This document shows positions 28,855-50,309 of a stretch of DNA of 64,000 nt, one piece after another (within the stretch, counting starts at the first letter, position 1; the number at the start of each line of letters is the position of its first letter). The position numbers and the translations under genes were made by a program. The notes beneath the pieces are model-generated. The model saw only the letters and a program-made list of their open reading frames with translations, ran no database searches and was not told the DNA's origin. Source of the DNA: Aureimonas sp. SA4125 (GTDB lineage Bacteria > Pseudomonadota > Alphaproteobacteria > Rhizobiales > Rhizobiaceae); assembly GCF_019973775.1 (NCBI RefSeq), contig NZ_AP025032.1, positions 2,852,001-2,916,000 on the forward strand. Direction: 5' to 3'.

Positions 28855-30108
28855 ATGAACAAGTTTTCGCGGCGTAGTTTCCTTCGCACCAGCGGTCTGG
28901 TGGCGGCCGGGATCACCGGATCCTTGGCCATGCCGGGGCTCATCCGCCCCTCGCTCGCCCAGAACGGCTCGGTCAAGCTCGGCTGCCTGTTCTCGTCCTC
29001 GGGGACGATGGCAAACATCGAGGGCCGCCTGAACGACGTCGTGAAGATGGCGGCGGCCGAGCTGAACGCCGCGGGCGGCGTCCTCGGCAAGACCGTCGAG
29101 GTGATCGTCTCCGATCCCGCCTCCGACTGGCCGCTCTACGCCCAGACCGGCCGGCAGATGCTGCAGCAGGAGAAGGTCGCGGCCCTGTTCGGCTGCTGGA
29201 CCTCGGTGTCGCGCAAATCCGTCCTGCCCGTCGTCGAGCAGGACGACGGCCTCCTGTTCTATCCCCTGCATTTCGAGGGCGACGAGAATTCCAAAAACGT
29301 CGTCTACGTCAACTCGCCGCCGGCAAGCTCGGTACTGCCGGCCGTCGACTATCTGATGAGCGAGGACGGCGTCAGCGCCAAGCGCTTCTTCCTGCTCGGC
29401 TCCGACTATGTCTGGCCGCGCACGATCAACAAGCAGCTGAAGGGCTACTTCGCCTCCAAGGGCATCGAGCCGGCCGCGATCCGCGAGGAGTACGTCCCCT
29501 TCGGCTTCTCCAACTTCCAGACCCTCGTCAACCAGATCCGAGAATTCGCCGACGGGACGGGCGGCCAGCCCGTGGTCATCCTGACGACGGTCGGCAATTC
29601 CATTCCCGACTTCTTCCGCGAATTCGCCAACCAGGGCATCCTCGCGACCGACGTGCCGGTGCTCGGTCTCGACGCGCTGGAGGCCGATTTCGAGGGCCTC
29701 GACACCGCGGCGCTCGTTGGCCACCTCAATTGCTGGGCGTATCTGCAGGCCGTTGAAGCGCCGGAGAACGACAAGTTCAAGGCCGACTGGGCCGCCTATG
29801 TCGGCGCCAACAACGTGCCCTACCGGCCCGACGTCGTCATCGACCCGATGGTCTCGGCCTATGATTCCGTGAAGCTCTGGGCCATGGCCGCCGAGAAGGC
29901 AGGCAATTTCGACGTGCCGGAAGTTCGCAGCGCTTTTGCCGGCATCGGCTTCAAGGACCCGTCCGGCTATGACATCGCGATGACGGCGGACAACAACTAT
30001 GTCAGCCGCGGCGTCTTCATCGGGTCGCTGAATGCCCAGCAGTCCTTCGACATCCTCTGGCAGTCCGAAGGCACGCCGAAGCCCGAGCCGTTCAGCACCT
30101 TCGGCTGA
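28855..30108 (+). CDS. urtA: Urea/short-amide ABC transporter substrate-binding protein UrtA
   Basis: 417 residues. Tat-type N-terminus (FSRRSFLRTSGLVAAG... SLAQ). Type-1 periplasmic binding protein of the UrtA/AmiC group: VKLGCLFSSSGTMANIEGRL, LFGCWTSVSRKSVLPVVE, FYPLHFEG, GSDYVWPRTINK. First gene of a five-gene urea-type importer, preceded by AGGTGG. Because fmdA follows immediately, the natural ligand may be formamide or a short aliphatic amide as well as urea, as in the Methylophilus Fmd system. Confidence 0.92.
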   Translation: MNKFSRRSFLRTSGLVAAGITGSLAMPGLIRPSLAQNGSVKLGCLFSSSGTMANIEGRLNDVVKMAAAELNAAGGVLGKTVEVIVSDPASDWPLYAQTGRQMLQQEKVAALFGCWTSVSRKSVLPVVEQDDGLLFYPLHFEGDENSKNVVYVNSPPASSVLPAVDYLMSEDGVSAKRFFLLGSDYVWPRTINKQLKGYFASKGIEPAAIREEYVPFGFSNFQTLVNQIREFADGTGGQPVVILTTVGNSIPDFFREFANQGILATDVPVLGLDALEADFEGLDTAALVGHLNCWAYLQAVEAPENDKFKADWAAYVGANNVPYRPDVVIDPMVSAYDSVKLWAMAAEKAGNFDVPEVRSAFAGIGFKDPSGYDIAMTADNNYVSRGVFIGSLNAQQSFDILWQSEGTPKPEPFSTFG

Positions 30109-30170
30109 AGAAGGCTTTGCGAGGCGCTTGCCCGCCAGGGCGTCTCCTCCACCTCGGGCCTCCCGGAAGC

Positions 30171-31934
30171 ATGAGCCAGCCGGACGGTCCAAGCGGGTCG
30201 CGAAGGCCGTTGGTCGCCGGCAACGCAGCGCGCGGATATCGCAGCAGGCACAACGCATCCCCTCGGGGGTGCCGGAGACAGCGATTGCAGAAATTCCTCG
30301 ACCGATGGGGCCGTCTCGCGGCAGCCGTCTTCCTCATCGCCGTCGCCGGATTTTCCGGAGCCGCCCGCGCCCAAGGCACCGATGCGGCGGCGCTGGATCG
30401 ACCCGGTTTCGTCGCCGGCCTCTGCGGTGGCGCGGGGCCGATGGCGCAGGCCATCGCTGGCGGCCTCGAAAGCCTTGCCGCCGCGTCGCCGGAAGATGTG
30501 ACCTGGATGGCCGGCATCGTCGCGGCACTCGGCGCGCGGCAGTTGCGCTGCGTTGAGCCCGGTGGGCTCATCCTCACGGCCGGGGCCGCGACCGACGCCG
30601 TCACCGGAGCGACAGTCTCCCCCCCAGGATCGCCGCGCACGCCGGTCCTGAACCTCCGTAGCCGTGGGGCGGTCGAGAATCTCGAGGCCGCGCTGACGCT
30701 TCTCAGCTCCAGAGACGCGCCCAGCCGCCAGCGCGCCCTCGCGCTCCTGTCGCGTCGGCCGGACGCGGTCCCGCCCACCGTCTTCGCGCGCGCCACGGAC
30801 CTTGCGGCGACGACGGCAGAGCGGGACGCCATCGCCGAACTGTCGGTGATCGCCGCGCTTTCCTCGCCCGACATGCCGGCGCGGCTGGCGGCCATCGCCG
30901 GCCTTGCCGCAGAGCCCAACCGCCGCACGCTGCTGCGTCTCGAAACCCTGCGCGAGGACCCGGCCTACGGCACCGACACGGCCTTCCGCGACACGGTCGA
31001 CGCGGCGATCGCCGACAGCAGCTTCTGGGTCAAGCTGAGCTCGGTGCTGTCGGTCGCCTATAACGGCATCAGCTATGCCAGCATCCTCTTCATCGCCGCG
31101 CTCGGCCTCGCCGTCATCTTCGGCCTGATGGGGGTCATCAACCTCGCCCAGGGCGAATTCATCATGCTCGGCGCCTACACCGCCTTCATGGTGCAGGAGG
31201 GTGTCCGCAGCGTCGCTCCGGGGCTGATCGACTTCTACCTCATCATCGCCGTGCCCTTCGTCTTCCTCGTCACCGCCCTCCTCGGCATTCTCGTGGAGGC
31301 GACGATCGTGCGCCATCTCTACCGGCGGCCGCTGATGACGCTGCTGGCCACCTGGGCGGTCTCGCTCTTCCTGATCAATCTCGTGCGCGTCACCTTCGGC
31401 ACGCAGAACCTGCAGTTCGTCACGCCCTCCTATGTCACGGGCGGCTTCACGCTCGTCGGCGATTTCATCGTCACCTACAACCGGCTGTTTGCGATCGTCT
31501 TTGCCGCCGCAGTGCTGGCGCTCGCCTGGTTCGTGCTGCAGCGGACGGGCCTTGGCCTCAACATCCGAACCGTCACGCAGAACCGCGACATGGCCGGCTG
31601 CATCGGCATCCCGACCCGCCGCGTCGACCGGCTCGCCTTCGGCCTCGGCTCGGGCCTTGCGGGCCTCGCCGGCCTCGCGCTGGCGCCGATCTACAACGTC
31701 AATCCGCTGATGGGGACGAACTTCATCATCGAGAGCTTCATGGTCGTCGTCCTCGGCGGCGTCGGGACGATCGGCGGCACCCTCATCGCCTCGCTCGGCA
31801 TCGGCCAGATCAACGTGATGATCGAGCCGCTCTACGGCGCGGTGGCGGCCAAGGTGATCGTGCTTCTCCTCATCATCGCCTTCATCCAGTGGCGGCCCGA
31901 GGGCCTGTTCCCGGCGCCGGGGCGTCGCAAGTGA
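30171..31934 (+). CDS. urtB: Urea ABC transporter permease UrtB with long N-terminal exported domain
   Basis: About 587 residues from ATG 30171 (GGAAGC upstream). UrtB characteristically has an N-terminal signal or anchor (RLAAAVFLIAVAGFSGAARA) and a helical HEAT-like region of about 250 residues before the LivH-type permease domain; both are present. The permease part starts near SVLSVAYNGISYASILFIAALGLAVIFGLMGVINLA-type helices and carries the NRDMAGCIGIPTRRVD loop. The family-typical length supports the fusion rather than two genes. Overlaps urtC by GTGA. Confidence 0.9.
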   Translation: MSQPDGPSGSRRPLVAGNAARGYRSRHNASPRGCRRQRLQKFLDRWGRLAAAVFLIAVAGFSGAARAQGTDAAALDRPGFVAGLCGGAGPMAQAIAGGLESLAAASPEDVTWMAGIVAALGARQLRCVEPGGLILTAGAATDAVTGATVSPPGSPRTPVLNLRSRGAVENLEAALTLLSSRDAPSRQRALALLSRRPDAVPPTVFARATDLAATTAERDAIAELSVIAALSSPDMPARLAAIAGLAAEPNRRTLLRLETLREDPAYGTDTAFRDTVDAAIADSSFWVKLSSVLSVAYNGISYASILFIAALGLAVIFGLMGVINLAQGEFIMLGAYTAFMVQEGVRSVAPGLIDFYLIIAVPFVFLVTALLGILVEATIVRHLYRRPLMTLLATWAVSLFLINLVRVTFGTQNLQFVTPSYVTGGFTLVGDFIVTYNRLFAIVFAAAVLALAWFVLQRTGLGLNIRTVTQNRDMAGCIGIPTRRVDRLAFGLGSGLAGLAGLALAPIYNVNPLMGTNFIIESFMVVVLGGVGTIGGTLIASLGIGQINVMIEPLYGAVAAKVIVLLLIIAFIQWRPEGLFPAPGRRK

Positions 31935-33112
31935 GCGCCGCGACCACACCGGCCGGCGCCCTCCCCGCCTCGCCCGGCCTCGTCCGCCGCTTCGGCGGCG
32001 ATGGCGGTTTCAGGACCGTCACCGCCCTCGTCGCCGCCGGGCTGGCCGCGATCCTCGTCTTCGGCGGAGCCCTCGCCGGCGGACCGCTCGGCCTGTCGCC
32101 CTATCTCGTCAACCTCGTCGGCCAGCTCGCCGCCTTCGCGCTGCTCGCTTTGGCGCTCGACCTGATCTGGGGCTTTGCCGGCATTCTCAGCCTCGGCCAC
32201 GGCCTCTACTTCGCCATCGGCGGCTACATCGCCGCCATGCATCTCCTGAAGCACGGCTTCGCGGTCAGCGGGGTCGTGCCCGACTTCATGCAGTTCATGG
32301 GCTGGAGCGAGTTTCCCGCCTTCTGGTGGGGTCTCGAGAGCTTTCCCTATGCGCTCCTCCTCGTCGTCCTCGTCTCCGGTACCGTCGCCTTCCTGTTCGG
32401 CTACGTCTCCTTCCGCTCCAAGGTCGGCGGCGTCTATTTCGCCATCATCACCCAGGCGCTCGTCTACGTCGCCATGCTGCTGATGTTCCGGAACGACACG
32501 GGTTTTGGCGGCAACAACGGCATGACCGGGTTTTCCGTGATCTTCGGATTTCCCGTCGGCTCCGCGGGCCTCACCGTCGGCCTCACGGCGGCATCGCTGG
32601 CGGTCCTCCTGACGGCCCTCCTCGGACTGCGCTGGCTGATGACGGGGCGCTACGGCCGGCTTGTCCTCGCCTGCCGCGACGACGAAGTGCGGCTGCGCAC
32701 GCTCGGCTACCGCACGCTGTGGCTGAAACTCTCGGTGTGGTGCCTGTCCGCCGTCCTCGCGGCCGTCGCCGGCATGCTCTACGTCCCGCAGGTCGGCATC
32801 ATCAACCCGCGGCTCCTCTCGCCGGAGCTGTCGATCGAAATCGCCGTCTGGGTCGCCATCGGCGGCCGGGGCTATCTCACCGGCGCGGTGCTCGGCGCGA
32901 TCTTCGTCAACGCCCTGAAGTTCTGGCTGGCGACGCGCGCGCCCGAGCTCTGGCCCTTCATCCTGTCCGGGCTGGTCGTCCTTGTCGTCCTCCTTCTGCC
33001 GAACGGCTTTTCGGACGCCGGTCGCGAAATCTCGCGCCTCGGGGATCGCCGCGGCCGGGGCCGGACGCTGGAGTCACTTCGGCGAACCCTCCTCCGGGAG
33101 CGAGGCGCATGA
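31931..33112 (+). CDS. urtC: Urea ABC transporter permease UrtC
   Basis: 393 residues from GTG 31931 inside the urtB stop. LivM-type permease with eight or more membrane helices (LWGFAGILSLGHGLYFAIGGYIAAMHL is the first conserved one), cytoplasmic loop DDEVRLRTLGYRTLWLKL, and a basic cytoplasmic tail. Pairs with UrtB. Overlaps urtD by ATGA. Confidence 0.92.
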   Translation: MSAATTPAGALPASPGLVRRFGGDGGFRTVTALVAAGLAAILVFGGALAGGPLGLSPYLVNLVGQLAAFALLALALDLIWGFAGILSLGHGLYFAIGGYIAAMHLLKHGFAVSGVVPDFMQFMGWSEFPAFWWGLESFPYALLLVVLVSGTVAFLFGYVSFRSKVGGVYFAIITQALVYVAMLLMFRNDTGFGGNNGMTGFSVIFGFPVGSAGLTVGLTAASLAVLLTALLGLRWLMTGRYGRLVLACRDDEVRLRTLGYRTLWLKLSVWCLSAVLAAVAGMLYVPQVGIINPRLLSPELSIEIAVWVAIGGRGYLTGAVLGAIFVNALKFWLATRAPELWPFILSGLVVLVVLLLPNGFSDAGREISRLGDRRGRGRTLESLRRTLLRERGA

Positions 33113-33840
33113 GCGGCGCGGCCATCGTGGTCGACGGGCTGGTCGTGCAGTTCGGCGCCTTCCGCGCCATCGACCAGCTCTCCCTCGTGATCAACTATGG
33201 CGAGGTTCAGTCGGTGATCGGCCCGAACGGCGCCGGCAAGACGACGCTCCTCGACGTCATCTCCGGCGTGACGCGCGCCGCCGCCGGAACGGTGACGCTC
33301 GACGGCGGAACCGAACTGACGACGGCGTCCGAGGCGGACATCGCAGGCGCGGGGATTCGCCGGAAATTCCAGAAGCCGAGCGTCTTCGAGGCGCTGACGG
33401 TTCGCGAAAACGTCGCCATCGGCCGGGCCGCGGGCTTCTGGCTGCTGGACCGGCGAAAGGCGAGCGATGCCGCCGCCGTCGCCGCGACGCTGTCGGCCGT
33501 CGGCCTCCTGGACCGCGCCGACGACAAGGCCGGGGGGCTCTCCCACGGCGAAAAGCAATGGCTGGAGATCGCGATGGTGCTGGCGTCGGAGCCGAAAGTG
33601 CTCCTCCTCGACGAGCCGGTCGCCGGCCTCAGCGACGAGGAGCGCGCCCGCACGGCCGATCTCGTGCGCTCCCTGCGCTCGCCCCGCCGCGCCATCGTCG
33701 TCGTCGAGCACGACATGGGTTTCGTCGAAAAGATCGCCGACCGCGTCACCGTGATGCACGAGGGCCGCTCGCTTTACGAGGGGCCGATGGAAGGCGCCCG
33801 CCGCGACGAGCGCGTCATCGACGTCTATCTCGGGCGCTGA
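33109..33840 (+). CDS. urtD: Urea ABC transporter ATPase UrtD
   Basis: 243 residues. Walker A GPNGAGKTT (38-46), signature LSHGEKQWLEIAM (UrtD-type in place of LSGGQ), Walker B VLLLDEPVAGLS, H-loop VEHDMGFV, C-terminal VIDVYLGR typical of LivG/UrtD. Two bases before urtE. Confidence 0.93.
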   Translation: MSGAAIVVDGLVVQFGAFRAIDQLSLVINYGEVQSVIGPNGAGKTTLLDVISGVTRAAAGTVTLDGGTELTTASEADIAGAGIRRKFQKPSVFEALTVRENVAIGRAAGFWLLDRRKASDAAAVAATLSAVGLLDRADDKAGGLSHGEKQWLEIAMVLASEPKVLLLDEPVAGLSDEERARTADLVRSLRSPRRAIVVVEHDMGFVEKIADRVTVMHEGRSLYEGPMEGARRDERVIDVYLGR

Positions 33841-33842
33841 CG

Positions 33843-34535
33843 ATGAGGCTGGAAATCAAGGGCCTCGACCAGCACTATGGCAGCGCCCAGGCGCTGCGCG
33901 GCATCGAGCTGACGGTGGAGAGCGGCGAATGCGTCGCGCTTCTCGGGCGCAACGGCGCGGGCAAGACGACGATCCTGAAATGCCTGATGGGGCTTCTTCA
34001 GCCGAGCGCCGGGACCATCCTTCTCGACGGCACCGACATCACGCGCTGGCCGAACTTCAAGCGCTCGCGCGCCGGCATCGGCTACGTCCCGCAGGGGCGC
34101 GAGATCTTTCGTGAGCTGACGGTGCGCGAGAACGTCCTCGCCGCCGCCCGCGCGCACGGCCATGACCAGGACGGCACGATCGAGGAAGTGCTGGCCTCCT
34201 TCCCGATCCTCACCGAGTTCTGGAAGCGCACCGGCGGCCAGCTCTCGGGCGGCCAGCAGCAGCAGCTCGCCTTCGCCCGGGCGCTCGTCACGCGGCCAAG
34301 ACTTCTCGTCCTCGACGAGCCGACGGAAGGCATCCAGCCCTCGATCGTCAAGGTCATCGGCGACGTCATCGCCCGCCTCAGGGGCGACATCACCGTCCTT
34401 CTCGTCGAGCAATATGTCGACTTCGCCCTCGGCCTCGCCGATGCCGCCGTCACCATCGAGCGGGGGCGCGCCAGTGCCCGCGTCCCGAAATCGGACTTCG
34501 CGGCAAAGGACCTGTCGCGCTTCGTCACGGTCTGA
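33843..34535 (+). CDS. urtE: Urea ABC transporter ATPase UrtE
   Basis: 230 residues. Walker A GRNGAGKTT (35-43), YVPQGREIFRELTVRENV, signature QLSGGQQQQLAFARAL, Walker B LLVLDEPTEGIQPSI, H-loop VEQYVDF. LivF/UrtE-type. Last transporter gene; fmdA follows after 27 bases with its own GGAG. Confidence 0.93.
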   Translation: MRLEIKGLDQHYGSAQALRGIELTVESGECVALLGRNGAGKTTILKCLMGLLQPSAGTILLDGTDITRWPNFKRSRAGIGYVPQGREIFRELTVRENVLAAARAHGHDQDGTIEEVLASFPILTEFWKRTGGQLSGGQQQQLAFARALVTRPRLLVLDEPTEGIQPSIVKVIGDVIARLRGDITVLLVEQYVDFALGLADAAVTIERGRASARVPKSDFAAKDLSRFVTV

Positions 34536-34562: not shown

Positions 34563-35501
34563 ATGCCACAAAGCCACGAAATCCCCGCCAGCCACGAATT
34601 CATGGTCTGGGGCTATGTCGACGCGACGACCAAGCCCGTCCTCGAAATCGCCTCGGGCGACATCGTCACCCTCCATTCCTTCCCGGCGGGCGGCGCCGAC
34701 ATCCTGCCCGCCAACCGCGAGATGGTGCCGCCGGCCTATCTCGAAGCGCTGGAGAAGATGACGCAGGGGCCCGGTCCACATTTCCTGACCGGCCCGGTCT
34801 ACGTAAAGGGCGCTGCCCCCGGTGATGTCCTCCAGATCGACATCCTCGACGTCGGCGTGACCATGGACTGGGGTTTCGTCGCCATCCTGCCGCTGCTCGG
34901 TACGCTGCCGGAGGCTTTCACCGAATACGAGACCGTCCACCCCGTCATCGATCATGAGCGCCAGGTCTGCATCATGCCCTGGGGGACGGAGATTCCGCTC
35001 GATCCCTTCTTCGGCATCATGTCCGTCGCCCCGCCCCCGGCCTGGGGCCGCTGCGGCTCGCCCGTGCCGCGCGCCTTCGGCGGCAACATGGACAACAAGG
35101 AGCTGCGGCCGGGGACGACGCTGTATCTCCCCGTCTTCAATGAGGGCGCGCTGTTCTATGCCGGCGACGGCCATGGCGTGCAGGGCGACGGCGAGGTCTG
35201 CATCACGGCGCTCGAGACCGGCGTCAGCGGCACGTTCCGGCTGACGGTGCGCAAGGATCTGGACTTCGACCGACCCTTCGCCGAAAGCGCGACGCATCTC
35301 ATCTCGATCGGGCTGAACGAGGATCTCGACGATGCCGCCAAGGAGGCGGTGGCGGAGATGGTCAAGCATGTCTGCGCGCGAACGAAGCTGACGCGCAACC
35401 AGGCCTACATGCTGATCTCGCTCGCCGGAAACCTGCGCGTCACCCAGCTCGTCGACGGCAACAAGGGTATCCACATGATGCTCGACAAACGCTTTCTCTG
35501 A
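34563..35501 (+). CDS. Acetamidase/formamidase (FmdA family)
   Basis: 312 residues. FmdA_AmdA fold; motifs HSFPAGG, TGPVYVKGAAPGDVLQIDIL, AGDGHGVQGDGEV and a C-terminal RTKLTRNQAYMLISLAGNLRVTQLVDGNKG stretch. These cytoplasmic hydrolases release ammonia and a carboxylate from formamide or acetamide. Direct linkage to urtABCDE indicates uptake and hydrolysis of a short amide as nitrogen source; formate would enter C1 metabolism. It is one of two FmdA-family genes facing each other here. Confidence 0.9.
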   Translation: MPQSHEIPASHEFMVWGYVDATTKPVLEIASGDIVTLHSFPAGGADILPANREMVPPAYLEALEKMTQGPGPHFLTGPVYVKGAAPGDVLQIDILDVGVTMDWGFVAILPLLGTLPEAFTEYETVHPVIDHERQVCIMPWGTEIPLDPFFGIMSVAPPPAWGRCGSPVPRAFGGNMDNKELRPGTTLYLPVFNEGALFYAGDGHGVQGDGEVCITALETGVSGTFRLTVRKDLDFDRPFAESATHLISIGLNEDLDDAAKEAVAEMVKHVCARTKLTRNQAYMLISLAGNLRVTQLVDGNKGIHMMLDKRFL

Positions 35502-35523
35502 CGCCGACCGCATCACCCCGAGG

Positions 35524-35604: not shown

Positions 35605-36000
35605 ATGAGACGTTCCAACCATACCGATGCGGAAATCGTGTCGCTTCTGAAGGAGGCCGAAGCCGGGGTCCCGATCGAGGAGATCTGCGCCACCGCCTAT
35701 ATCTCGACGCGGACCTTCTACCGCTGGCGCAAGCAGCTCGGCGGTCTCCAGCCCGACGCGCTCCGCCGTCTGCGGACGCTTGAGCAGGAAAATCAGCATC
35801 TCCGCGTGTTGATCGGCCACCTCAAGGCGGTCAACCCCGGCGGCGTCTGGAGCGGCTGGGCCGGGGGCAGCAAGGCCACGCGCAGCGAATGCGGCCTCGG
35901 CACCCCGCTGAAAGACGCGCCCCTCGTCTCGGCCGGCCGGCATGCCGGCTCGGGCGCCTCGTCCGGCCGCTTCGCCAGCCTGCGCGCCGGCCGCTGCTGA
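35605..36000 (+). CDS. IS3-OrfA-like helix-turn-helix protein with unrelated C-terminal tail
   Basis: 131 residues with an excellent GGAGG ribosome site 6 bases before ATG 35605. Residues 1-75 match the transposase_8 / IS3 OrfA N-terminus: SNHTDAEIVSLLKEAEAG, ISTRTFYRWRKQLGG, then LRRLRTLEQENQHLRVL of the leucine zipper. The tail (about 78-131) is Gly/Ser/Ala-rich and lacks OrfA features; no OrfB, frameshift signal or terminal repeats are present. It is either a stranded transposase fragment or a solo DNA-binding protein. Its good start and place between urt-fmdA and a terminator leave a regulatory use possible. Confidence 0.7.
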   Translation: MRRSNHTDAEIVSLLKEAEAGVPIEEICATAYISTRTFYRWRKQLGGLQPDALRRLRTLEQENQHLRVLIGHLKAVNPGGVWSGWAGGSKATRSECGLGTPLKDAPLVSAGRHAGSGASSGRFASLRAGRC

Positions 36001-37082: not shown

Positions 37083-37958
37083 TCAGCGGGTTTTCTGCCA
37101 AGGTTTCAGAAGACGTTCCAACCGGCCAACGAGCCATGTCAGAACCAGAGCGAGGGTGATCGTGGCGACGAGGGCGGCAAAGACCTTCGGAATCACGTAA
37201 AGCGACCCGGCCTTGAAGATCGCGTGGCCGAGCCCCTCCGAGGACGACATGAATTCGCCGATGATCGCCCCGATGAGCGCGAAACCGACGGTGAGCTTCA
37301 GCCCGGCAAAGATGTCGTTCAGCGAAGAGGGAACGACGAGTTTGGTGAAGATCTGCGACTTTCGGGCCCCCAGAGTGCGCAGGAGGTTCACCTGGTCCGG
37401 ATCGACGCTCATCGCGCCCTTGTAGGAGGTGACGAGCGCCACCACGACGACCGACAGCGTCGACATGGCCACCTTGGAGGTGAGCCCGGTCCCGAACCAG
37501 ATGATCACCATGGGCGCCAGCGCGATGATCGGGATGGAGCCGAGAGCGACGACAAAAGGTTGGACGACCCGCGACAGAAAACGCGAATACCAGAGCGATA
37601 GGCCCATCAGCGTTCCCAGGATATTGCCGAGTCCGAAGCCGAGAAGAGTCTCGAGGCCGGTGACGTAGGTGTCGCGCCAGAGACTGCCGTCACCGGCCAT
37701 CTGCACGAGGAAGGTGAAGATCGCGCTGGGCGAGCCGAACAGGAACGCCGTCTGGCGGCTCAGCGACGTGACATATTCCCAGGCGCCGACGAAGACGACG
37801 AGGATGCCGATCTGGCAGGCGAGAACGAGCGCGCTTTCCCGCCGCCGCCGGGCGCGGGCCTCTCCCCGCCGCGCGGCAGCGCCAGCGCCGGATAGCGTGG
37901 TTCCCGTCTCGCCGGAAGCGACCGCCGCAGCGGCGGGAATGTCCGACAGGCCGCTCAT
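37083..37958 (-). CDS. ABC transporter permease, SsuC/TauC-type
   Basis: 291 residues from ATG 37958 (overlaps the ATPase stop, ATGA). A basic, Ala-rich cytoplasmic N-terminus, then about six membrane helices with a BPD_transp_1 EAA-like loop (LLRTLGARKSQIFTKLVVPSSLNDIFAGLK). Family transports nitrate, sulfonates, pyrimidine precursors and related compounds. Works with the ATPase and binding protein upstream. Confidence 0.9.
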   Translation of the reverse strand: MSGLSDIPAAAAVASGETGTTLSGAGAAARRGEARARRRRESALVLACQIGILVVFVGAWEYVTSLSRQTAFLFGSPSAIFTFLVQMAGDGSLWRDTYVTGLETLLGFGLGNILGTLMGLSLWYSRFLSRVVQPFVVALGSIPIIALAPMVIIWFGTGLTSKVAMSTLSVVVVALVTSYKGAMSVDPDQVNLLRTLGARKSQIFTKLVVPSSLNDIFAGLKLTVGFALIGAIIGEFMSSSEGLGHAIFKAGSLYVIPKVFAALVATITLALVLTWLVGRLERLLKPWQKTR

Positions 37959-40270: not shown

Positions 40271-40570
40271 TCACGCCTTGGCCGAGATTTCCTTCGCCGT
40301 GACGAGGACGACGTCGCCGTCGAGAATGGGTTTTGCAAGGGCGAAGAAGGCGGCGACGGTGTCGGAGCCGTTGTGCCGGTCCATCGCCGCCTGGTCGGCG
40401 AAGCGCTCATAGGTGGTGAAGAGGCAGGGATCGCCGAGGTCCTGGCTGACGAAGAAGCCGGTCGTCTCCGGCTCGTTGGCGGCGACGTGGGCGGCCACGG
40501 TGAGGAGGCCGCCGCGCATGACCTCCTCCTCCCCCGGCTTGACGCGGATGATGGCGGAGATCGTCAGCAT
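40271..40570 (-). CDS. ABM-domain protein (putative quinol monooxygenase, YgiN-like)
   Basis: 99 residues. Antibiotic-biosynthesis-monooxygenase ferredoxin-like fold: [66 protein letters not shown]. Start ATG 40570 shares bases with the amidase stop, so it is translated with it. Small ABM proteins oxidise quinols or serve as stress-linked oxygenases; in this operon the link to amide breakdown is unknown. Confidence 0.85.
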   Translation of the reverse strand: MLTISAIIRVKPGEEEVMRGGLLTVAAHVAANEPETTGFFVSQDLGDPCLFTTYERFADQAAMDRHNGSDTVAAFFALAKPILDGDVVLVTAKEISAKA

Positions 40571-42084
40571 CAGAAGTTCTTCCAGTCGCCATCGGCCTCG
40601 AAGGCAGCGGCGGCCTGGTAGATCGTGCTCTCGTCGTAATCCTTCGCCGTCAGCATCAGGCCGACCGGCAGACCGTCCGAGAGGCCGCAAGGGATCGACA
40701 TCGAGGGATGGCCGGTGACGTCGAACTGGCAGGTGGCGCCGATCATCTCGAACGCGCGCATGACGACCTCCTCCAGCGGGGCGTCCTTTTCCGGAAGCTT
40801 CGAGGCGACGATCGGCAGGGTCGGCATCAGCAGCAGGTCGTATCCGGCGAAGACCGCGTCATAGGCCGCCTTCATTGCCCGGGCCAGATTCTGCGCCTTG
40901 GCGTAGTAGCGGCCCCGATAATGCGTGAGCCCCCACTGCCCGACCAGCATCGACAGCTTCAGCGTCTTCGACAGGTCGTCGGCGCGGTCGCGCCAGGCCG
41001 AATGCGCGTCGATCAGGCCGACATCGTACTGGCCCTTCCAGTTGAAGCCCATGCCGTTGCCGTGCATCATCTGCTGCACCAGGCCTTCGAGGCCGATCGG
41101 CTGCCAGACGGCAGCCGTCAGCGGGTGCTCGGGGATCGAGATCTCCTCGACCGTCGCGCCCATCGCTCGAAATCTTTCGGCGCCCGCGCGTACCTTGTCG
41201 GCGACCGCAGGGTCCATGTTGGCGATGGTGAAGCCCTCCGTCACAACCGCGATCTTCAGGCCCTTGGGACCCTTCCCCAGCGCCTCGGTATAGGCCGAGA
41301 CCTTCGGCGCGTACTGGCGTGGGTCGAGCCCGTCGGCGCCGGCCAGCACCTCGAGCAGCAGCGCATTGTCGGCGACACTGGCGGTCATCGGGCCGGTATG
41401 ATCGATGGTGGATTCGATCGGCATCACGCCGGTATAGGGCACGAGGCCATGCGTGGCCTTCATCCCGTAGATGCCGCAGAACGAGGCAGGGATACGGATC
41501 GAGCCACCCTGGTCGCCGCCGATCGCCATGTCGACCTCGCCCGCCGCAACGAGCGCGCCGCTGCCCGAGGACGAGCCGCCGGCGGAGTATCCCATGCGAT
41601 GCGGGTTGTGAACCGGTCCCGGATCGGAGGTGTGGCTGCCGCCCGAAAGACAGAACTGCTCGCAGACGGCCTTGCCGAGGATCGTTGCGCCGGCGTCCAG
41701 CATACGCGTCACGATGGTCGCGTCCACGGTCGGCACGAAGCCCTCCAGCGTCGAGGCGCCGTTCATCATCGGCACGCCGGCAAGGGAGATGTTGTCCTTC
41801 AGCGCCACGGTCTTGCCGGTGAGCTTGCCCTTGGCAGCGCCCTTCACCTCGCTCTTGTAGTACCAGGCATTGTACTTGTTCTCCTCGCCGACAGGGCGAT
41901 AGCCGGGCGTGCGGGGATAGGCGACCTTGGCGACGTTGTCCGGCATGGCGTCGACGACGTCATAGGCATCGAAGTTCGCCTGCATCAGCGCAAGGTAGCT
42001 CTCGGCCTCCTCGGTGCTGAAGGTCAGGCCGAGATCGGCGGCGATTTCCAGGACCTGTTCGGTCGAGGGACGGGTGATGGCCAT
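40570..42084 (-). CDS. Amidase-signature amidase, Rhodococcus enantioselective-amidase type
   Basis: 504 residues. Catalytic Ser-cisSer-Lys triad visible: K96 (VALKDNIS), GGSSSGSG at 169-176 with S171, nucleophile S195 in [12 protein letters not shown]. These positions and the N-terminal helical extension ([17 protein letters not shown]) are those of the nitrile-hydratase-linked amidases of Rhodococcus, which act on short and arylaliphatic amides. No nitrile hydratase genes occur in this window. It follows amidase 43543 by 79 bases in the long minus-strand operon and should convert the imported amide to acid plus ammonia. Confidence 0.92.
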
Positions 42085-43647: not shown

Positions 43648-44355
43648 TTAAGCCATGCTCATGCCGACATGGCTGGCGATGGCCTCGCTGTCCTCCAGGT
43701 CGGCGGCGGAAATCTCGCCGGTGATGCGACCCTTCTGGATGGTCAGAACGCGGTCGGAGAGCGAGGTGATGAAGTCGAGATTCTGCTCGACCAGGATCAT
43801 GGTGATGTCCCAGCGCGCCTTGAGGCCGAGCAGCGTTTCGATGATCTCCTCGATGATCGAGGGCTGGATGCCCTCGGTCGGCTCGTCGAGCAGGATGATG
43901 CGCGGCTTGGTGCAGAGGCAGCGCGCCAGCGCCAGCAACTGCTGCTCTCCGCCCGAGAGCGCGCCGCCGCGCCGATCGAGCAGCCGCACGAGCCGTGGGA
44001 AGTCGGCGAGCACGGCGTCGATGACGCTAAGGTCTTCCTTCTTCGCGCTGGCAAGCCCCATGCGCAGATTCTCCTGCACGGTGAGCGCCGGAAAGATCTC
44101 GCGGCCCTGCGGCACGATGCCGACACCCATGCGCGAGCGCTCGTGCACGGGCTTGCGGGTGATATCGGTGCCGTCGAGCGTCACCGTTCCGCCGGTGGCG
44201 GGCAGGTAGCCCATCAGCGTCTTCATCAGCGTGGTCTTGCCCATGCCATTGTGGCCGAGGATGCCGAGATACTCGCCCTGCCTGAGGTCGAGGCTGACGC
44301 CGGTGAGGATGGGAACGCGGCCGTAATTGGCCCTGAGGTCTTTGACGGTAAGCAT
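43648..44355 (-). CDS. Branched-chain/urea-type ABC transporter ATPase (LivF/UrtE-like)
   Basis: 235 residues. Walker A GHNGMGKTT (34-42; Met in place of the usual Ala), VPQGREIFPALTVQENL, signature ALSGGEQQLLALARCL, Walker B IILLDEPTEGIQPSI, H-loop VEQNLDF. One base overlaps the LivG-like gene. The EGIQPSI text groups it with urea/amide rather than amino-acid importers. Confidence 0.92.
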   Translation of the reverse strand: MLTVKDLRANYGRVPILTGVSLDLRQGEYLGILGHNGMGKTTLMKTLMGYLPATGGTVTLDGTDITRKPVHERSRMGVGIVPQGREIFPALTVQENLRMGLASAKKEDLSVIDAVLADFPRLVRLLDRRGGALSGGEQQLLALARCLCTKPRIILLDEPTEGIQPSIIEEIIETLLGLKARWDITMILVEQNLDFITSLSDRVLTIQKGRITGEISAADLEDSEAIASHVGMSMA

Positions 44356-45086
44356 CAGGCGGCGACCTTCTTGCCGAGATAGACGTCGCGCACGCGAGGA
44401 TCGCGCATCACCGTGTCGATCGGCGCTTCCATCATGATCTCGCCCTGGTGGAAGACGGTGACGGTGCGGGCGATCATCTTGATGAACTGCATGTCGTGCT
44501 CGACGACGATCAGCGCCCTTGTGAGGTTGATCTCCTTGATGATCTCGGCGGTGCGCACGGTCTCATCGTCGGTCATGCCGGCGGCGGGCTCGTCGAGCAG
44601 GATCAGCTCGGGATCGGCGGCGAGCACGGTGCCGATCTCCACCCATTGCCGCTGGCCATGCGACAGCTGACCGACGATGGCATCCTGGCGCCCAGTCATG
44701 CGGATCTTCTCCAGCACCTCGTCGACGAGGCCCTTGATCCGGCGCGGGGTCGCGCGCCGGCGGGCGCCCATCCAGATGTTCTCGCGCACGGTCAGGCCGT
44801 TGAAGACGTTCGGCACCTGCGTCTTGATGCCGACGCCGAGGCGGGCGATCTCATGCGAGGCGGCGCCGGCGATCGGCTTGCCGCGAAAGGCGATGGAGCC
44901 GCTCGTCGGCGTCAGCTGGCCGGTCAGCATCTTGAAGAAGGTGCTCTTGCCGGCGCCATTCGGGCCGATCAAGCAGCGCAGCTCCATCTCGCCGAGGGTG
45001 AAGTTCACGTCGTTGTTGGCCACCACGCCGCCGAAGCGCATCGTGAGGTTCTTCGTCTGCAGCAACGGGACGAGTTCGGTCATCAC
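44355..45086 (-). CDS. Branched-chain/urea-type ABC transporter ATPase (LivG/UrtD-like)
   Basis: 243 residues. Walker A GPNGAGKST (41-49), signature QLSHGQRQWVEIGTVL as in UrtD, Walker B LILLDEPAAGMT, H-loop VEHDMQFI, C-terminal VRDVYLGKK. Two in-frame ATGs (45086, 45083); the first overlaps the permease stop. Confidence 0.92.
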   Translation of the reverse strand: MMTELVPLLQTKNLTMRFGGVVANNDVNFTLGEMELRCLIGPNGAGKSTFFKMLTGQLTPTSGSIAFRGKPIAGAASHEIARLGVGIKTQVPNVFNGLTVRENIWMGARRRATPRRIKGLVDEVLEKIRMTGRQDAIVGQLSHGQRQWVEIGTVLAADPELILLDEPAAGMTDDETVRTAEIIKEINLTRALIVVEHDMQFIKMIARTVTVFHQGEIMMEAPIDTVMRDPRVRDVYLGKKVAA

Positions 45087-46141
45087 TCGGCTCCTACCGG
45101 GCTGGCATCGAGGCGGGTCGGTTCCGCCGCGGAGCGCCGGCTGCGGTCGCCGACGAAGCGGCCGGCCTTTGTCAGGAGATTGCTGAAGGTCGGGACAAGG
45201 CCCTGCGGCAGCAGCAGCACGAAGGCGATGAGGATGGCACCGAGCACGAGGTTCGAATTGAACGCCTGCTGCGAGCCGATCTGGGCGACGATGTACTGGA
45301 TGATGAAGCAGCCGATGACCGGGCCCAGCAGCGTGCCGAGACCGCCGACGGTGATCCAGATGATGATCTCGGCCGACAGCGACAGGCTGAAGATGGTCGG
45401 CCCGACGAAGGCGCCCCAGTTGACGTAGAGCGCGCCGCCGAGACCCGCCACCGCGCCGCCGATGACGAAGGCGCAGAGTTTGATGAGGCGCGGATCGTAG
45501 CCGAGCAGCGAGGCGCGCACCTCGTTCTCCTTGACGGCGACGACGACGCGTCCGAAGGGGCTGGCGAGAATGATGCGCAGGAGCACGTAGACGAGGATCA
45601 GCGCCCCGGCCGTGACGTACCAGGCCTGGTCGATGTCGAGGATTGTGGATGGGTCGAAGGGCATGTTGAAGGTCGGGACGGAGGGAATGCCGTTGAAGCC
45701 GCCGAGCCGGGCGGTGCCGATCGTGTATTCGTCGCCGGCGGTGGAGTTGACGAGGTTGAACAGGATCAGCGTCACCGTGAGCGTAATGACGCCGAGATAG
45801 ACGTCGCTGATCCGGCCGTAGAAGACGAAATAGCCGAGCGCCGCGGAAAAGAGCGCCGGCACGAGGATCGCGAGGCCAATCGCACTGGTGGAGTCGCCGG
45901 TGTTGATCGCCGTGATGGCATAGGCATAGGCGCCGAGGCCGAAGAAGGCGGTCTGGCCGAAGCAGAGGATCCCGCCAAAGCCCCAGATGAAGCCGAGACT
46001 GAGGGCGAGAACGCCCATCGACGCGAACAGTGTCAGCTGCATCAGGTCGAACATCTCCATGACCTTCGGCAGGATCATCACGGTGGCGATCGCGGCGACG
46101 AGGGCGAGAAGCTGAAGGCCGTTCTTGAGGGTTGAGGGCAT
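45083..46141 (-). CDS. ABC transporter permease (LivM/UrtC-like)
   Basis: 352 residues from ATG 46141, which overlaps the LivH-like stop (TGATG). About eight to ten membrane helices, IWGFGGILCFGQTAFFGLGAYAYAI, loop VKENEVRASLLGYDPRLIKL, VGGLGTLLGPVIG. Cytoplasmic tail of about 40 residues. Half of the translocation channel for the amide importer. Confidence 0.92.
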   Translation of the reverse strand: MPSTLKNGLQLLALVAAIATVMILPKVMEMFDLMQLTLFASMGVLALSLGFIWGFGGILCFGQTAFFGLGAYAYAITAINTGDSTSAIGLAILVPALFSAALGYFVFYGRISDVYLGVITLTVTLILFNLVNSTAGDEYTIGTARLGGFNGIPSVPTFNMPFDPSTILDIDQAWYVTAGALILVYVLLRIILASPFGRVVVAVKENEVRASLLGYDPRLIKLCAFVIGGAVAGLGGALYVNWGAFVGPTIFSLSLSAEIIIWITVGGLGTLLGPVIGCFIIQYIVAQIGSQQAFNSNLVLGAILIAFVLLLPQGLVPTFSNLLTKAGRFVGDRSRRSAAEPTRLDASPVGAE

Positions 46142-47007
46142 CAGAGGCTCCCCTTGTAGAAGCGGCCGGAAATGCCTGTCGGCAGAAGGCGGATGAGCAG
46201 GATGGCGGACAGAAAGAGGATCACCTCGCCATAGACCGGCGTGGTGAAATAGGCGCCGAGCTGGTTGATGGTGCCGAACAGGCCGGCGGCCGAGGCGGTG
46301 CCCGAGAGGATCGCCGCCCCGCCGCCGACGACGGAGATGAAGGCTTTTGCGACATAGGCCGAGCCCATGGTCGGCACGATGCCGGAGATCGGCGCCAGCA
46401 GGCCGCCGGCAAGGCCGGTCAGACCCGCACCGATGGCAAATGTCGCCATGTAGACGCGCGCCGGGGCGATGCCGAGCGCCGCCGCCATCTGCGGGTTCTG
46501 CATCGTCGCGCGGGCGATAAGGCCGAAGCGGGTGTAGCGCATCACCACATAGATCAGCGCCATGACGACCAGCGCCATCAAGGCGAGGAACAGCGTGTAG
46601 TAGCTCGACCGGTAGGCACCGATGGCAAAGCCACCGAGCGGCGTCGGCACGCCATTGATGGTGTTGCCGAAGATCGTCGTTACGATGCCGATGATGAGAA
46701 GGCTGAGGCCCCAGGTGGCGAGCATGGTGTCGACCAGCCGGCCATAGAGGAACTGGATCAGGCAACGCTCGATGACGAGGCCGACAAGGCCGACGAAGAC
46801 GGGAGAGATGACCAGCATGGCGAACCAGATGTTCACGCCGGCATTGGTCGAGATCACCGTCGCATAGGCGCCGAGCATGACGAACTCGCCATGCGCCAGG
46901 TTGATGATCCGCATCATGCCGAAGATGATCGCCAATCCGAGGCAGAGCAGAAGAAGCGAGGCCGCGCCGCTGACGACATCGAGCGCAAGGATGACCGCAA
47001 GTTCCAT
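46141..47007 (-). CDS. ABC transporter permease (LivH/UrtB-like)
   Basis: 288 residues, no long N-terminal extension, unlike UrtB at 30171. Helices with FGMMRIINLAHGEFVMLGAYA and the loop ATMQNPQMAAALGIAPARVY. Partner of the LivM-like permease. About 100 bases after the binding-protein gene. Confidence 0.92.
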   Translation of the reverse strand: MELAVILALDVVSGAASLLLLCLGLAIIFGMMRIINLAHGEFVMLGAYATVISTNAGVNIWFAMLVISPVFVGLVGLVIERCLIQFLYGRLVDTMLATWGLSLLIIGIVTTIFGNTINGVPTPLGGFAIGAYRSSYYTLFLALMALVVMALIYVVMRYTRFGLIARATMQNPQMAAALGIAPARVYMATFAIGAGLTGLAGGLLAPISGIVPTMGSAYVAKAFISVVGGGAAILSGTASAAGLFGTINQLGAYFTTPVYGEVILFLSAILLIRLLPTGISGRFYKGSL

Positions 47008-47110: not shown

Positions 47111-48349
47111 TCAGACGTCGATGACGTACTGCTTGTTGTCGGTCGGATTCTTGACAAGGTCGCAGACGCCCGCCGTATCGAGCGGCTTGGCTTCCGGGAA
47201 CGTCTCCAGCACCGACCACTTCCGCTCCTTGACCTCGGCGAGATAGGCGTTGCGCGTGGTGTGATGGGTGGCATGGTCGAGCACGACCTTGCCGCTCGGT
47301 CCCTCGAAGGTGATGCCGCTCTCCAGTGCCTCGATCACCGCCATGCGGTCGATGACGCCGGCCTTCTTGACGGCCTCGACCCAGAGATAGAACCCCTCAT
47401 AGGTCCCCGCCGCGAGCTCGGCGATGTAAGGAAGATCGGGCGTCTTCGCCCTGAGCTTGCCGACGAAATCGGTGCTGGCGGGTGTGGTGAGCTCCTCGAA
47501 ATAGCCATAGGCGCCCAGAATGCCCTCGCTCTCGCTGGCATCGAGCGTCGACGGCTCGTTGACGAGGCCGAAAGTCGTCGAGGCGATCGGGATCTGGCTC
47601 TTCATGCCGGCCGATGTCCACTGCCGGTAGAACGAGGTGTGATTGCCGCCGACGAGCGCCGACAGGATGAGATCGGGCTTGGCCGCCTGGATCTTGGAGA
47701 TGGTCGGGCCGAAATTGGTGACGTCGAGCGGGAAGAAGTCGACCGACAGCACCTCGCCGCCATTGTCCTTGACGTATTTCGCCATCCATTTCGAGGTGAT
47801 CTGGCCGTAATTGTAGTCGGCAGCGATGATGTAGACCTTCTTGCCGCTCTTCCCCATCGCGTAGGGAACCAGCTTTTCCACCGTCTGGGCCGGCGTCGTG
47901 CCGGTGCAGAAGGTGTTGCGGTCGCAAACGCCGCCCTCGTAGAGCGTGTTGTAGAAATAGAGCACCTTGAAGCGGTCGAAGGTCGGACGCACCGCCTCGC
48001 GCGAGGCCGAGGTGATGCCGCCGTGCACGACCGCGACCTTGTCCTTCACCGCCAGCTGTTGAGCGTATTGCGAATACATCTGGATGTTCGACTGGGTGTC
48101 GTAGTGCACGAGTTGCAGCGGCCGGCCGAGCAGCCCCCCGGCGGCGTTCACCTCCTCGATCCCGAGATTGAGGGCCGCCACCATCGGGACACCGGACGCG
48201 GCGATCGGCCCGGACTGATCGTGCAGGCTGCCCACCAGGATCGGATCATCGGCGCCATAAGCATGGCGCGAGATTAGTGCCGGGGCGGCGAGAATGGTGA
48301 CCGAGCCAGCGATCGAGCTGCGGAGAAACTGGCGGCGTGAATAGCTCAT
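47111..48349 (-). CDS. UrtA/AmiC-type substrate-binding protein of the amide importer (Tat signal)
   Basis: 412 residues. Tat-type signal (YSRRQFLRSSIAGSVTILAAPALI). Mature protein is a type-1 binding protein: ILVGSLHDQSGPIAASGVPM, LVHYDTQSNIQMYSQYA, VHGGITSASREAVRPTFD, LYFYNTLYEGGVCDRNTF, IIAADYNYGQITSKWMAKYV. The sequence is of the urea/short-amide class. The 93-base gap before it is strikingly A+T-rich and may hold a promoter of its own. Confidence 0.9.
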   Translation of the reverse strand: MSYSRRQFLRSSIAGSVTILAAPALISRHAYGADDPILVGSLHDQSGPIAASGVPMVAALNLGIEEVNAAGGLLGRPLQLVHYDTQSNIQMYSQYAQQLAVKDKVAVVHGGITSASREAVRPTFDRFKVLYFYNTLYEGGVCDRNTFCTGTTPAQTVEKLVPYAMGKSGKKVYIIAADYNYGQITSKWMAKYVKDNGGEVLSVDFFPLDVTNFGPTISKIQAAKPDLILSALVGGNHTSFYRQWTSAGMKSQIPIASTTFGLVNEPSTLDASESEGILGAYGYFEELTTPASTDFVGKLRAKTPDLPYIAELAAGTYEGFYLWVEAVKKAGVIDRMAVIEALESGITFEGPSGKVVLDHATHHTTRNAYLAEVKERKWSVLETFPEAKPLDTAGVCDLVKNPTDNKQYVIDV

Positions 48350-48442: not shown

Positions 48443-49480
48443 CTATTGCGGGCCCATGATCCTGACGTCACAGCCCTCAACCCGGGCGAAATGAATGGGG
48501 TGCCTGGCGCCCGCCACGGGCTGCCTGTCGACGCCGCGGGCCGTGCTGGCCTGGAAGGTGCGGCGCATCCGGCGCCGGATGTCTGAAACGTCGAAGGCGC
48601 CTGCGGCCTGCACCAGGCCGGCGAGACAGTGGATGCCCTCGTAGCATGACTGCCCGAAGGCGTTGGCCGGCGGCGGACAGTCGCCGAACAGACCGTGATA
48701 GCGCTCGAGAAAACCGCCATTGTTGTGCGAACGGATGCTCGAGAAATAGGCGGACGAGAGGAAGAGATTCTCGGTGGCATCTTCACCGAGCCCGTAGAGC
48801 ACCGTCTCGTCGATCGCCGAGCAGAACCGCAGGACCCGCGCCGCAAGCCCCGCCTCGGCAAAGGCGCGGTTGAAGCTGATCGCCCCCGCCCCGAGAAAGT
48901 ACGGCAGGACGACATCGGCGCCGGACACCCTGATCGCATCGAAGATGCGGTCGTAGTCGGCAAAGCCGAAGGGCAGCAGCATTTCGCCGACGACCGTGCC
49001 GCCATGCGCGCGGATGATGGGCTTTGCCGTTCTGAACGTCCCGCGCGGCCAGACATAATCGTCGCCGACGAGAAAGAAGCGACGGGCGCCGAGCGCCTGG
49101 GAGAGATGGGCAATGCCGGGCACGAGCAGATCGTCGGAGGTCTCGCCGACCGTCAGGCAGTCGGGATCGTCGCCTTCGAACTGCGGCGTATAGACGAAGG
49201 GAATCCTCCCGCCGATCGCCTGGACGATGGCCCGGCGGGCATAGCTCGGGATCATGCCGACGATGGCGTCCACACCATCGATCTCCAGCGCGGAGGTCGC
49301 GGCAGCGGCGGCGCTCCGCGCGGTGGGCCCGGCGTCGACCACGGCGAGCCTGACCTCGCGGCCGAAAAGACCGCCGGTCCCGTTGAGCTCGTGAACGGCG
49401 AGCGTCGCGCAGGCCTCGGCCGACGGCGCCCAGATGCCGGGCGGGCCTTCCTGCGGAATGAGCAAGCCGATGGTGACCAC
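48443..49480 (-). CDS. AmiC-like cytoplasmic amide sensor (type-1 binding-protein fold without signal peptide)
   Basis: 345 residues from GTG 49480, chosen because GGGAGG lies 5 bases upstream and the protein fold begins there (VTIGLLIPQEGPPGIWAPSAEA); the frame is open to 49858 but that stretch is not coding-like. No signal peptide or Tat motif, in contrast to both UrtA-type proteins in this window. It matches the AmiC/UrtA group (ACATLAVHELNGTGGLFGREVRL, FLVGDDYVWPRGTFRTAK, YFSSIRSHNNGGFLERY). Pseudomonas AmiC is a cytoplasmic amide sensor that holds the antiterminator AmiR; no ANTAR-domain AmiR is in this window. As first gene of the amidase operon it is probably its regulator. Confidence 0.8.
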   Translation of the reverse strand: MVTIGLLIPQEGPPGIWAPSAEACATLAVHELNGTGGLFGREVRLAVVDAGPTARSAAAAATSALEIDGVDAIVGMIPSYARRAIVQAIGGRIPFVYTPQFEGDDPDCLTVGETSDDLLVPGIAHLSQALGARRFFLVGDDYVWPRGTFRTAKPIIRAHGGTVVGEMLLPFGFADYDRIFDAIRVSGADVVLPYFLGAGAISFNRAFAEAGLAARVLRFCSAIDETVLYGLGEDATENLFLSSAYFSSIRSHNNGGFLERYHGLFGDCPPPANAFGQSCYEGIHCLAGLVQAAGAFDVSDIRRRMRRTFQASTARGVDRQPVAGARHPIHFARVEGCDVRIMGPQ

Positions 49481-49865
49481 GCCAGCCTCCCGTCTTCCCT
49501 TTCGGCCCACCACCGCAGCCTGGCTGCGCTTATCCGGGTCGACGTCCTGACACTTGTCGCGGCGCGACCGAGTGACAAAGCAATCGCGGGTGCCGATGCA
49601 GGTGGCGTGCCAATTCCCAGGGCGCCTGACAGCCGGCCGATCCCACTGCCGTCGGCTCATCAGATCATCCCTCGTCCGGAAAGCGATGAAATAATCGGCA
49701 GTCGCCATTTTGCATCGCAAAACGGCAGACCCACTGGCATTTTTGCCTGAACGGTCTTCGCAGATCGAAAACGGAGAATTTTGCGACAGTTCAGGATGGC
49801 AACCACCCGCAAAAGCCTTGCTCAAGGGGGGTGCGGTTGAATATGCCTGAAACGGCAACTATTGA
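49481..49865. promoter_or_regulatory. Divergent control region of the amide operon and marR
   Basis: 385 bases between the AmiC-like gene and marR. The main feature is a dyad at 49704-49726 with core TTTTGC-ATC-GCAAAA (49708-49722). A second, GGCA-AAAA-TGCC, overlaps 49737-49750, and a repeated CTGAA-CGG element occurs near 49747 and 49849. A MarR-type protein commonly binds such a dyad. Confidence 0.55.
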
Positions 49866-50309
49866 ATGTCGAGAGATCCAGTGACCCAACCCGACCCGCA
49901 GCCATACGAACTGGCCCATCTGATTACCGGCGTCAGTCGGCGGCTGGAAGCCGAGATCGAGGAACGGCTGCGGCCCGAAGGCGTGCCGATCGACCAGTAC
50001 CGCATCCTGCGCACCCTGACGTCCCGAGACGGTCAGGCGATGGGCGAATTGGCCGACGCCGTTCTCGTCGATTCACCGACGCTGACCAAGATCGTCGACC
50101 GCATGGTCAGCAATGCGCTCGTCTACCGCGCCCCCGAGCCAAAGGACCGGCGCAAGGTGCTGATCTTTCTGTCCACCAAGGGCAAGGCTCTGCAAGCCCG
50201 GCTAACCGGCCTTGTGGAAATCCCCTCCCGCGGGCTGGCGGGGCGGCTCGGCGGCAAGGAAACCGAAATGCTGACCTCTCTCCTCACCCGGTTGATGCGC
50301 CCGGCGTGA
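49866..50309 (+). CDS. MarR-family transcriptional regulator
   Basis: 147 residues. Winged helix of MarR type: ELAHLITGVSRRLEAEIEERL, QYRILRTLTSRDGQAMGELADAVLVDSPTLTKIVDRMVSNALVYRAPEPKDRRKVLIFLSTKGKAL. Divergent from the AmiC-like/amidase operon, so it probably represses that operon and itself, through the dyad at 49704-49726, with an amide or acid as effector. Confidence 0.9.
   Translation: MSRDPVTQPDPQPYELAHLITGVSRRLEAEIEERLRPEGVPIDQYRILRTLTSRDGQAMGELADAVLVDSPTLTKIVDRMVSNALVYRAPEPKDRRKVLIFLSTKGKALQARLTGLVEIPSRGLAGRLGGKETEMLTSLLTRLMRPA

Follow-up and report, generated by a model that had tools for sequence, protein, structure and literature searches.

A stretch of 64,000 nucleotides from Aureimonas sp. 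SA4125 (‘the window’ below is this whole stretch) encodes at positions 28855-50309, all in intact frames, three importers of the ATP-binding cassette (ABC) type together with four predicted amide hydrolases. We read it as an amide locus two of whose three operons form one regulon, controlled by a domesticated relative of the OrfA half of IS3 transposases, and we put the probability of this at roughly 60%. The proposed regulator is a protein of 131 amino acids with an HTH_Tnp_1 helix-turn-helix (HTH) domain, encoded between the two operons. Its gene keeps company with one of the hydrolase genes across genomes, its C-terminal tail is conserved, and an inverted repeat stands before both operons in most cases where the genome encodes the protein.

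The first group, on the plus strand, is a urtABCDE-type operon with a short acetamidase/formamidase family protein (FmdA1). The second, on the minus strand, joins an NMT1-type substrate-binding protein (gene nmtSBP), ATPase and permease to another short protein of that family (FmdA2). The third, also on the minus strand, starts with an AmiC-like gene and continues with the genes for the Urt-type binding protein SBP2, two permeases and two ATPases; those for two amidase-signature enzymes and an ABM-domain protein follow, and a MarR gene is divergent from the operon. A sequence-only reading of the window had placed the importers and hydrolases correctly, and its view of them as an amide-nitrogen locus of a methylotroph, with its own hydrolase next to each importer, has held. 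Absent from it were the HTH_Tnp_1 protein, the AmiC-like gene, the ABM-domain protein and the divergent MarR gene, the end coordinate that it gave, 50309, being the end of the last of these.

In the scheme proposed here an amide would be caught outside the membrane by the binding proteins, imported through the ABC permeases and split in the cytosol by a short FmdA or an amidase-signature enzyme, with release of ammonia and a carboxylic acid. Operons urtABCDE-fmdA1-HTH and nmtSBP-ATPase-permease-fmdA2 would constitute one small regulon. The 131-residue protein, a domesticated IS3-OrfA-like DNA-binding protein and the most likely regulator of both, would probably dimerise via its long helix and bind TG[TG]CA-N4-TG[AC]CA before each, as activator or as repressor, in answer to an inducer. 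Since its gene is the last of its own operon in the window, it would also control itself.

An inverted repeat before two operons

The partnership of the HTH gene with FmdA1 is close. A family model for the protein was run against 397 genomes without restriction of place, the listed matches reaching E ~6e-20, and all 17 of the listed stop-free matches that extend to model position 117 or beyond lie, by coordinates, within 7 kb of FmdA1; one more long match free of stops, in genome G098, lacks the tail and is an ordinary OrfA. The placing shifts, the gene being 3' of FmdA1 in the window and in Aurantimonas and divergent from urtA1 or from FmdA1 elsewhere, and the partnership is kept. Among the 45 loci yielded by an FmdA2 scan of the genome collection, the HTH gene adjoins 14, in 13 of which FmdA1 is present, the 14th being at a contig edge; the other 31 have no FmdA1 of at least 70% identity. 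FmdA1 itself (E up to 1e-60) occurs in 100 of the 397 genomes of the order. Forty places with high-ranking FmdA1 matches were examined: 16 have the HTH gene, all of them together with urt or nmt genes, and of the 24 that lack it, urt genes are present in L146 and L171 alone and nmt genes in none.

The inverted repeat was first seen on aligning the regions between the HTH gene and nmtSBP. A relaxed rule, TG[TG]CA-N4-TG[AC]C[AG] or [CT]G[TG]CA-N4-TG[AC]CA, finds it 5' of nmtSBP in 25 of the 29 loci from genomes that encode the HTH protein (in nine loci the gene is elsewhere in the genome) versus none of seven checked loci of genomes that do not. The nmt loci of G193 and G098, found later, also lack it, and with no full-length HTH gene found in either the latter count becomes 0/9. 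Before urtA1 the figures are 18 of 22 with the protein versus 0 of 3 without. The position is nearly fixed at urtA1 (-131 to -145) and ranges from -176 to -327 at nmtSBP, while in L200-L203 the dyad stands at -138 before FmdA1 itself; shuffled 450-bp upstream regions contain a site in 0.3% of cases.

The order in which part of this was done matters. With a fixed consensus of 14 letters, those nmt loci without an adjoining HTH gene that were later scanned fell into a group scoring 10-13 (L030, L032-L035, L043, L048, L051, L052) and one scoring 8-10 (L037, L044, L054, L056, L058, L060, L063), and their genomes were scanned for the protein (E up to 1e-14) only after this scoring. A full-length HTH gene was present elsewhere in the genome for 9/9 of the former and 0/7 of the latter, and the distant genes of those nine loci, plus the second HTH gene of G443, all adjoin FmdA1. 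Mere similarity of the operons does not account for the relation, because close relatives lack both dyad and full-length HTH gene: nmtSBP of L044, G193 and G098 is 83-85% identical to that of the window, and L146 has the most similar urtA1 among the mapped loci (80%). The suggestion of the sequence-only reading that each group is separately regulated is not supported for groups 1 and 2, which share a repeat that tracks the HTH_Tnp_1 protein; group 3 has its own AmiC-like and MarR genes.

In the Aureimonas genome the strict pattern occurs at four places (one on both strands), one of them the urtA1 site; it misses the nmt site. L150 and L151 each have two FmdA1 and two HTH genes: the copy with a changed tail adjoins an nmt operon without a site, and the first copy adjoins urtA1 with a perfect one. 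A split of duties between the copies would explain these misses, after the fact. No clean rule emerged by which residues of the recognition helix would specify T or G in the site.

The alternative that survives best is that the HTH protein regulates the fmdA1 operon alone and that the nmt dyad serves a different, co-inherited regulator. It draws on the gene being found beside FmdA1 and sometimes away from nmt, and on ten loci (L038-L042, L045-L047, L049, L053), in which FmdA1 is divergent from the HTH gene, with nmt following, that showed no dyad before FmdA1. It also draws on five nmt loci (L030, L032-L035) in which the slot 5' of nmtSBP, taken by the HTH gene in other loci, holds an AmiC-like gene together with one similar to the ANTAR protein of L079 (61-62 bits). 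Nevertheless one and the same dyad precedes urtA1, the FmdA1 of L200-L203 and nmtSBP, and at nmtSBP it is missing from all of the nine checked loci whose genomes yielded no full-length HTH gene, so that we hold this alternative to be unlikely. The AmiC/ANTAR pairs themselves support amides as inducers of nmt and a regulatory role for whichever gene occupies the slot.

A transposase-like protein with a conserved tail

By its matches the protein is of transposase stock, with 46.0 bits against PF01527 (gathering score 24.1) and 25.2 bits against the IS3 transposase model NF033516, whose cut-off is 160; names were found on eight of 24 relatives, and all eight are ‘transposase’. These are the grounds for an alternative in which it is a functionless IS3 remnant and the dyad serves some other nitrogen-supply regulator. 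Against this, the gap to FmdA2 leaves no room for an OrfB and no repeats flank the gene (two 10-nt inverted pairs are present, neither flanking it). Moreover, the family build has a conserved core, a linker variable in sequence and length, and a conserved C-terminal patch, the tail GR[FY][AS]xxR being in 41 of the 43 model matches of the examined loci. Over the 33 closest pairs, distant pairs being saturated and not used, the ratio of nonsynonymous to synonymous substitution (dN/dS) is 0.23 in the HTH part, 0.62 in the linker and 0.065 in the tail. Judged by these ratios the protein is under purifying selection, strongest in the tail. With the FmdA1 linkage surviving rearrangement as well, a dead remnant is improbable.

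A domesticated regulator fares better. An AlphaFold model has confident helices at 8-45 and a long helix at 50-76, then disorder in the linker. That there is here a new family of transcription regulators, descended from IS3 OrfA, reduced to its DNA-binding and dimer helices, extended by the GR[FY][AS]xxR tail and controlling amide import and hydrolysis through the dyad, seems to us slightly the better bet. As the protein is without a sensing domain and is encoded in the company of fmdA1, its tail might bind a partner, be it the FmdA1 hydrolase or something else, with the enzyme itself reporting amide supply; this is a long shot.

Several points weigh against assigning the dyad to this protein, and they are best taken together. 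Some of the loci later counted were among those whose alignment first revealed the dyad, and the T/G and A/C degeneracy was admitted after the fixed consensus had been used. The two scoring groups overlap at 10 (L032, L063), and the relaxed rule finds nothing in 4/29 nmt and 4/22 urtA1 regions of HTH genomes. Of the seven HTH-free nmt loci outside the scan for the protein (L050, L055, L057, L062, L064, L066, L071), six have no site; L050, whose upstream region was too short to be counted, matches 11/14 letters of the fixed consensus and fails the relaxed rule. Absence of the protein from G098 is not certain because two partial HTH-like matches there are cut by contig ends. Fisher's test gives 4e-6 (nmt) and 0.015 (urtA1), values that overstate the evidence because the genomes are related, and some of the loci served to find the motif. 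Promoter scans gave no sigma-70-like promoter near either dyad of the window. The genomes with the AmiC-ANTAR pairs also carry the HTH gene, so either could control nmtSBP. As to the protein, 12 of the 19 rows of the family model come from FmdA1-linked loci, the two tail exceptions are the second copies of L150 and L151 (a YYASLR variant), and a fold search with its model gave no solved structure at E 0.001.

Substrates, gene order and the third operon

Urea is not the likely cargo. Against the curated urea cut-off of 492.75 bits (TIGR03407) UrtA1 scores 392.5 and SBP2 249.9; UrtB and UrtC of operon 1 exceed their cut-offs and the permeases of operon 3 do not. In Prochlorococcus UrtA urea is hydrogen-bonded by Ser122, Gln144, Tyr190 and Asn246 (PMC10392092). 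With that numbering mapped by hand from printed alignments, UrtA1 has Ser, His, Tyr and Val, thus keeping Ser122 and Tyr190 and replacing Gln144 and Asn246; in SBP2 these last two give way to Leu and Val.

The formamidase assignment is similarly weakened. FmdA1 (107.8 bits) and FmdA2 (97.1) belong to the PF03069 superfamily (gathering score 27), and their 64.1 and 77.4 bits fall well below the formamidase cut-off of 500 (NF045496). Among solved structures FmdA1 is most closely related to 2ii1, called acetamidase (145 bits), and the formamidase 2wkn ranks last of the six relatives (57.9 bits). Two UrtAs of the genome are above the urea cut-off, at C1:2834460 and 4050112. The first has a canonical long FmdA behind it at 2839280 (606 bits), this pair lying at C1:2834460-2840413, outside the window, and a zinc-ribbon gene comes next; a urease lies at 4040522, ~9 kb from the second. 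The urtABCDE-like genes and long FmdA just 5' of the window (L073, G000:C1:2832001-2852000) are probably the genome's classic formamide/urea-type operon. Urea was rejected as the substrate of operon 1 because of the sub-cut-off score, the replaced pocket residues and the urea systems elsewhere. The sequence-only reading had taken urtABCDE-fmdA for a formamide/urea system, against which the low UrtA1 score, the shortness of both FmdAs and the canonical systems elsewhere in the genome speak. All three operons would then serve short amides other than urea. An alternative considered for the NMT1 importer and FmdA2 is a possible role in dealing with a thiamine precursor.

The methylotrophy of the host, which the sequence-only reading had remarked on, is borne out by a PQQ (pyrroloquinoline quinone) methanol/ethanol dehydrogenase with a MoxJ equivalog above cut-off, at window 6919-9925, and by three matches to Fae in the genome. 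The dehydrogenase and MoxJ genes lie ~19 kb ahead of the amide island.

Parts of the gene order recur in other genomes, and because of this the arrangement is not a matter of chance. NMT1 binding-protein genes are beside FmdA2 in 37 of the 45 loci, Burkholderiales and Skermanella included, the eight without being L059, L061, L065, L067-L070 and L072. The urt-fmdA1 and nmt-fmdA2 sets occur together in L031, L036, L148, L150 and L151. FmdA1 with nmt-fmdA2 and no urt genes is found in Aurantimonas (L028), Bradyrhizobium-type loci and others, and Liv-type importer genes 48-56% identical to those of operon 3 adjoin urt-fmdA1 in L156, L158 and L159. In Aurantimonas another Liv importer and an amidase-signature amidase of another subfamily stand beside nmt-fmdA2, the HTH gene and FmdA1. 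Among the loci examined, with flanks of at most ~10 kb, all three modules in one place were found in the window only. The idea that the full set was undescribed thus survives in part: the full triple was found only in the window, while the pairing of importer with hydrolase is known, urt-fmdA1/nmt-fmdA2 recurs, and complete uniqueness of the neighbourhood is ruled out by these partial recurrences.

Operon 3 is probably controlled separately, to judge from its gene content, by its AmiC-like sensor and the divergent MarR protein. The AmiC-like gene, without an evident leader, heads the operon, and in the five genomes observed its divergent neighbour is a MarR gene, four of these genomes (L075-L078) obtained from a search of 60 relatives and having the 504-residue amidase too. 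AmiC-AmiR antitermination was rejected for it: no ANTAR gene is near, the genome's two ANTAR matches being at 2.29 and 4.18 Mb. The 504-residue amidase scores 838.8 bits against PRK07235 (cut-off 545) and has the Rhodococcus enzyme 3a1k as its best solved relative. The ABM-domain gene directly behind it has a counterpart 64% identical in L075. In L076 a flotillin/SPFH-type gene (L076:3777-5525) lies between the AmiC-like and binding-protein genes; L077 and L078 have unannotated gaps of like size. Elsewhere in the genome, L079 (G000:C1:4166001-4182000), with a short FmdA-family gene near AmiC-like and ANTAR genes, is likely an AmiC-AmiR system. The existence of three operons, with MarR and AmiC-like genes on the third, is what speaks for three independently controlled formamide, urea and N-methylamide systems with no special regulator, an account made very improbable by the shared dyad, the HTH protein and the urea and canonical formamide-type systems elsewhere in the genome.

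Coordinates of the locus are collected below. A neighbouring cluster (window 20430-24291) has frames for a HutC-type repressor and a HisD-type dehydrogenase; scans of the window with Rfam (gathering scores) and for tRNAs led nowhere.

Features of the amide locus, in window positions
Feature	Position	Strand	Remarks
Dyad TGGCAAAATTGCC, candidate operator	28715..28727		~140 bp 5' of urtA1
UrtA1, amide/urea-type binding protein, below urea cut-off	28855..30108	+	Tat-type leader by eye
UrtB-type permease	30117..31934	+	TIGR03409 357.6 bits, cut-off 250.3; N-terminal start uncertain
UrtC-type permease	31889..33112	+	TIGR03408 357.2 bits, cut-off 296.2; start uncertain
UrtD-type ATPase	33109..33840	+	294.8 of 304.1 bits, just below cut-off
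UrtE-type ATPase	33843..34535	+	285.8 of 285.8 bits, at cut-off
FmdA1, short acetamidase/formamidase family protein, 312 aa (amino acids)	34563..35501	+
Orphan HTH_Tnp_1 protein, 131 aa, proposed regulator	35605..36000	+
FmdA2, short acetamidase/formamidase family protein, 305 aa	36136..37053	-
NMT1-type importer permease, SsuC/TauC-like	37083..37958	-
NMT1-type importer ATPase	37955..38770	-
NMT1-type substrate-binding protein	38770..39780	-
Dyad AGTGGCAACTTTGACATT, TGTCA-N4-TGCCA on minus strand, candidate operator	40092..40109		~327 bp 5' of NMT1 operon
ABM-domain protein, behind amidases	40271..40570	-
Amidase, 504 aa, close to 3a1i/3a1k	40570..42084	-
Second amidase-signature enzyme, 460 aa	42164..43543	-
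UrtE/LivF-type ATPase	43648..44355	-
UrtD/LivG-type ATPase	44355..45086	-
UrtC/LivM-type permease	45083..46141	-
UrtB/LivH-type permease	46141..47007	-
SBP2, Urt-type binding protein, below urea cut-offs	47111..48349	-
AmiC-like binding protein	48443..49480	-	GTG start after GGGAGG; no leader by eye
MarR-type regulator, divergent from AmiC-like gene	49866..50309	+

Relation to known systems

Should the proposal be right, a gene family now labelled transposase would turn out to be a regulator of the host, with a target site that can be predicted, and a further case in bacteria of the conversion of transposon to regulator. The family would serve as a marker to locate amide regulons, operons distant from the regulator gene included, and the reading of such Urt/FmdA operons as urea or formamide systems would be corrected.

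Operons that join an importer of short amides to a hydrolase are known from Methylophilus, and the fmdCABDEF cluster of Methylophilus methylotrophus likewise belongs to a methylotroph. It includes a formamidase, a putative positive regulator and a porin (PMC10781810, which cites Mills 1998 and Wyborn 1996); the window has instead short FmdAs and an HTH protein of transposase type, and the long FmdA beside a zinc-ribbon gene is outside it. In blr0968-blr0973 of Bradyrhizobium japonicum a five-gene Urt-type importer adjoins an acetamidase/formamidase family gene (PF03069) and was predicted in 2010 to carry amides, not urea. It differs in having an AmiE-type amidase as a further neighbour, and the passages available describe no NMT1 operon, HTH protein or dyad (PMC3098086). 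A Pseudomonas that draws its nitrogen from formamide is reported to carry urtABCDE together with a formamidase (PMC13209695). The operons are therefore of a known kind and, with no paper on the HTH protein or the dyad recognised in open-licence PMC text, the proposed regulator is the new part.

Likeness to AmiC-AmiR regulation extends to the AmiC-like sensor at the head of operon 3 and to the AmiC/ANTAR pairs 5' of some nmtSBP genes, with operon 3 differing in its divergent MarR gene and in having no ANTAR gene nearby. With IS3 OrfA the HTH protein shares the HTH_Tnp_1 domain and a leucine-rich helix; besides standing without OrfB or flanking inverted repeats, it departs from OrfA in its kept neighbourhood and in the extra, conserved C-terminal tail.

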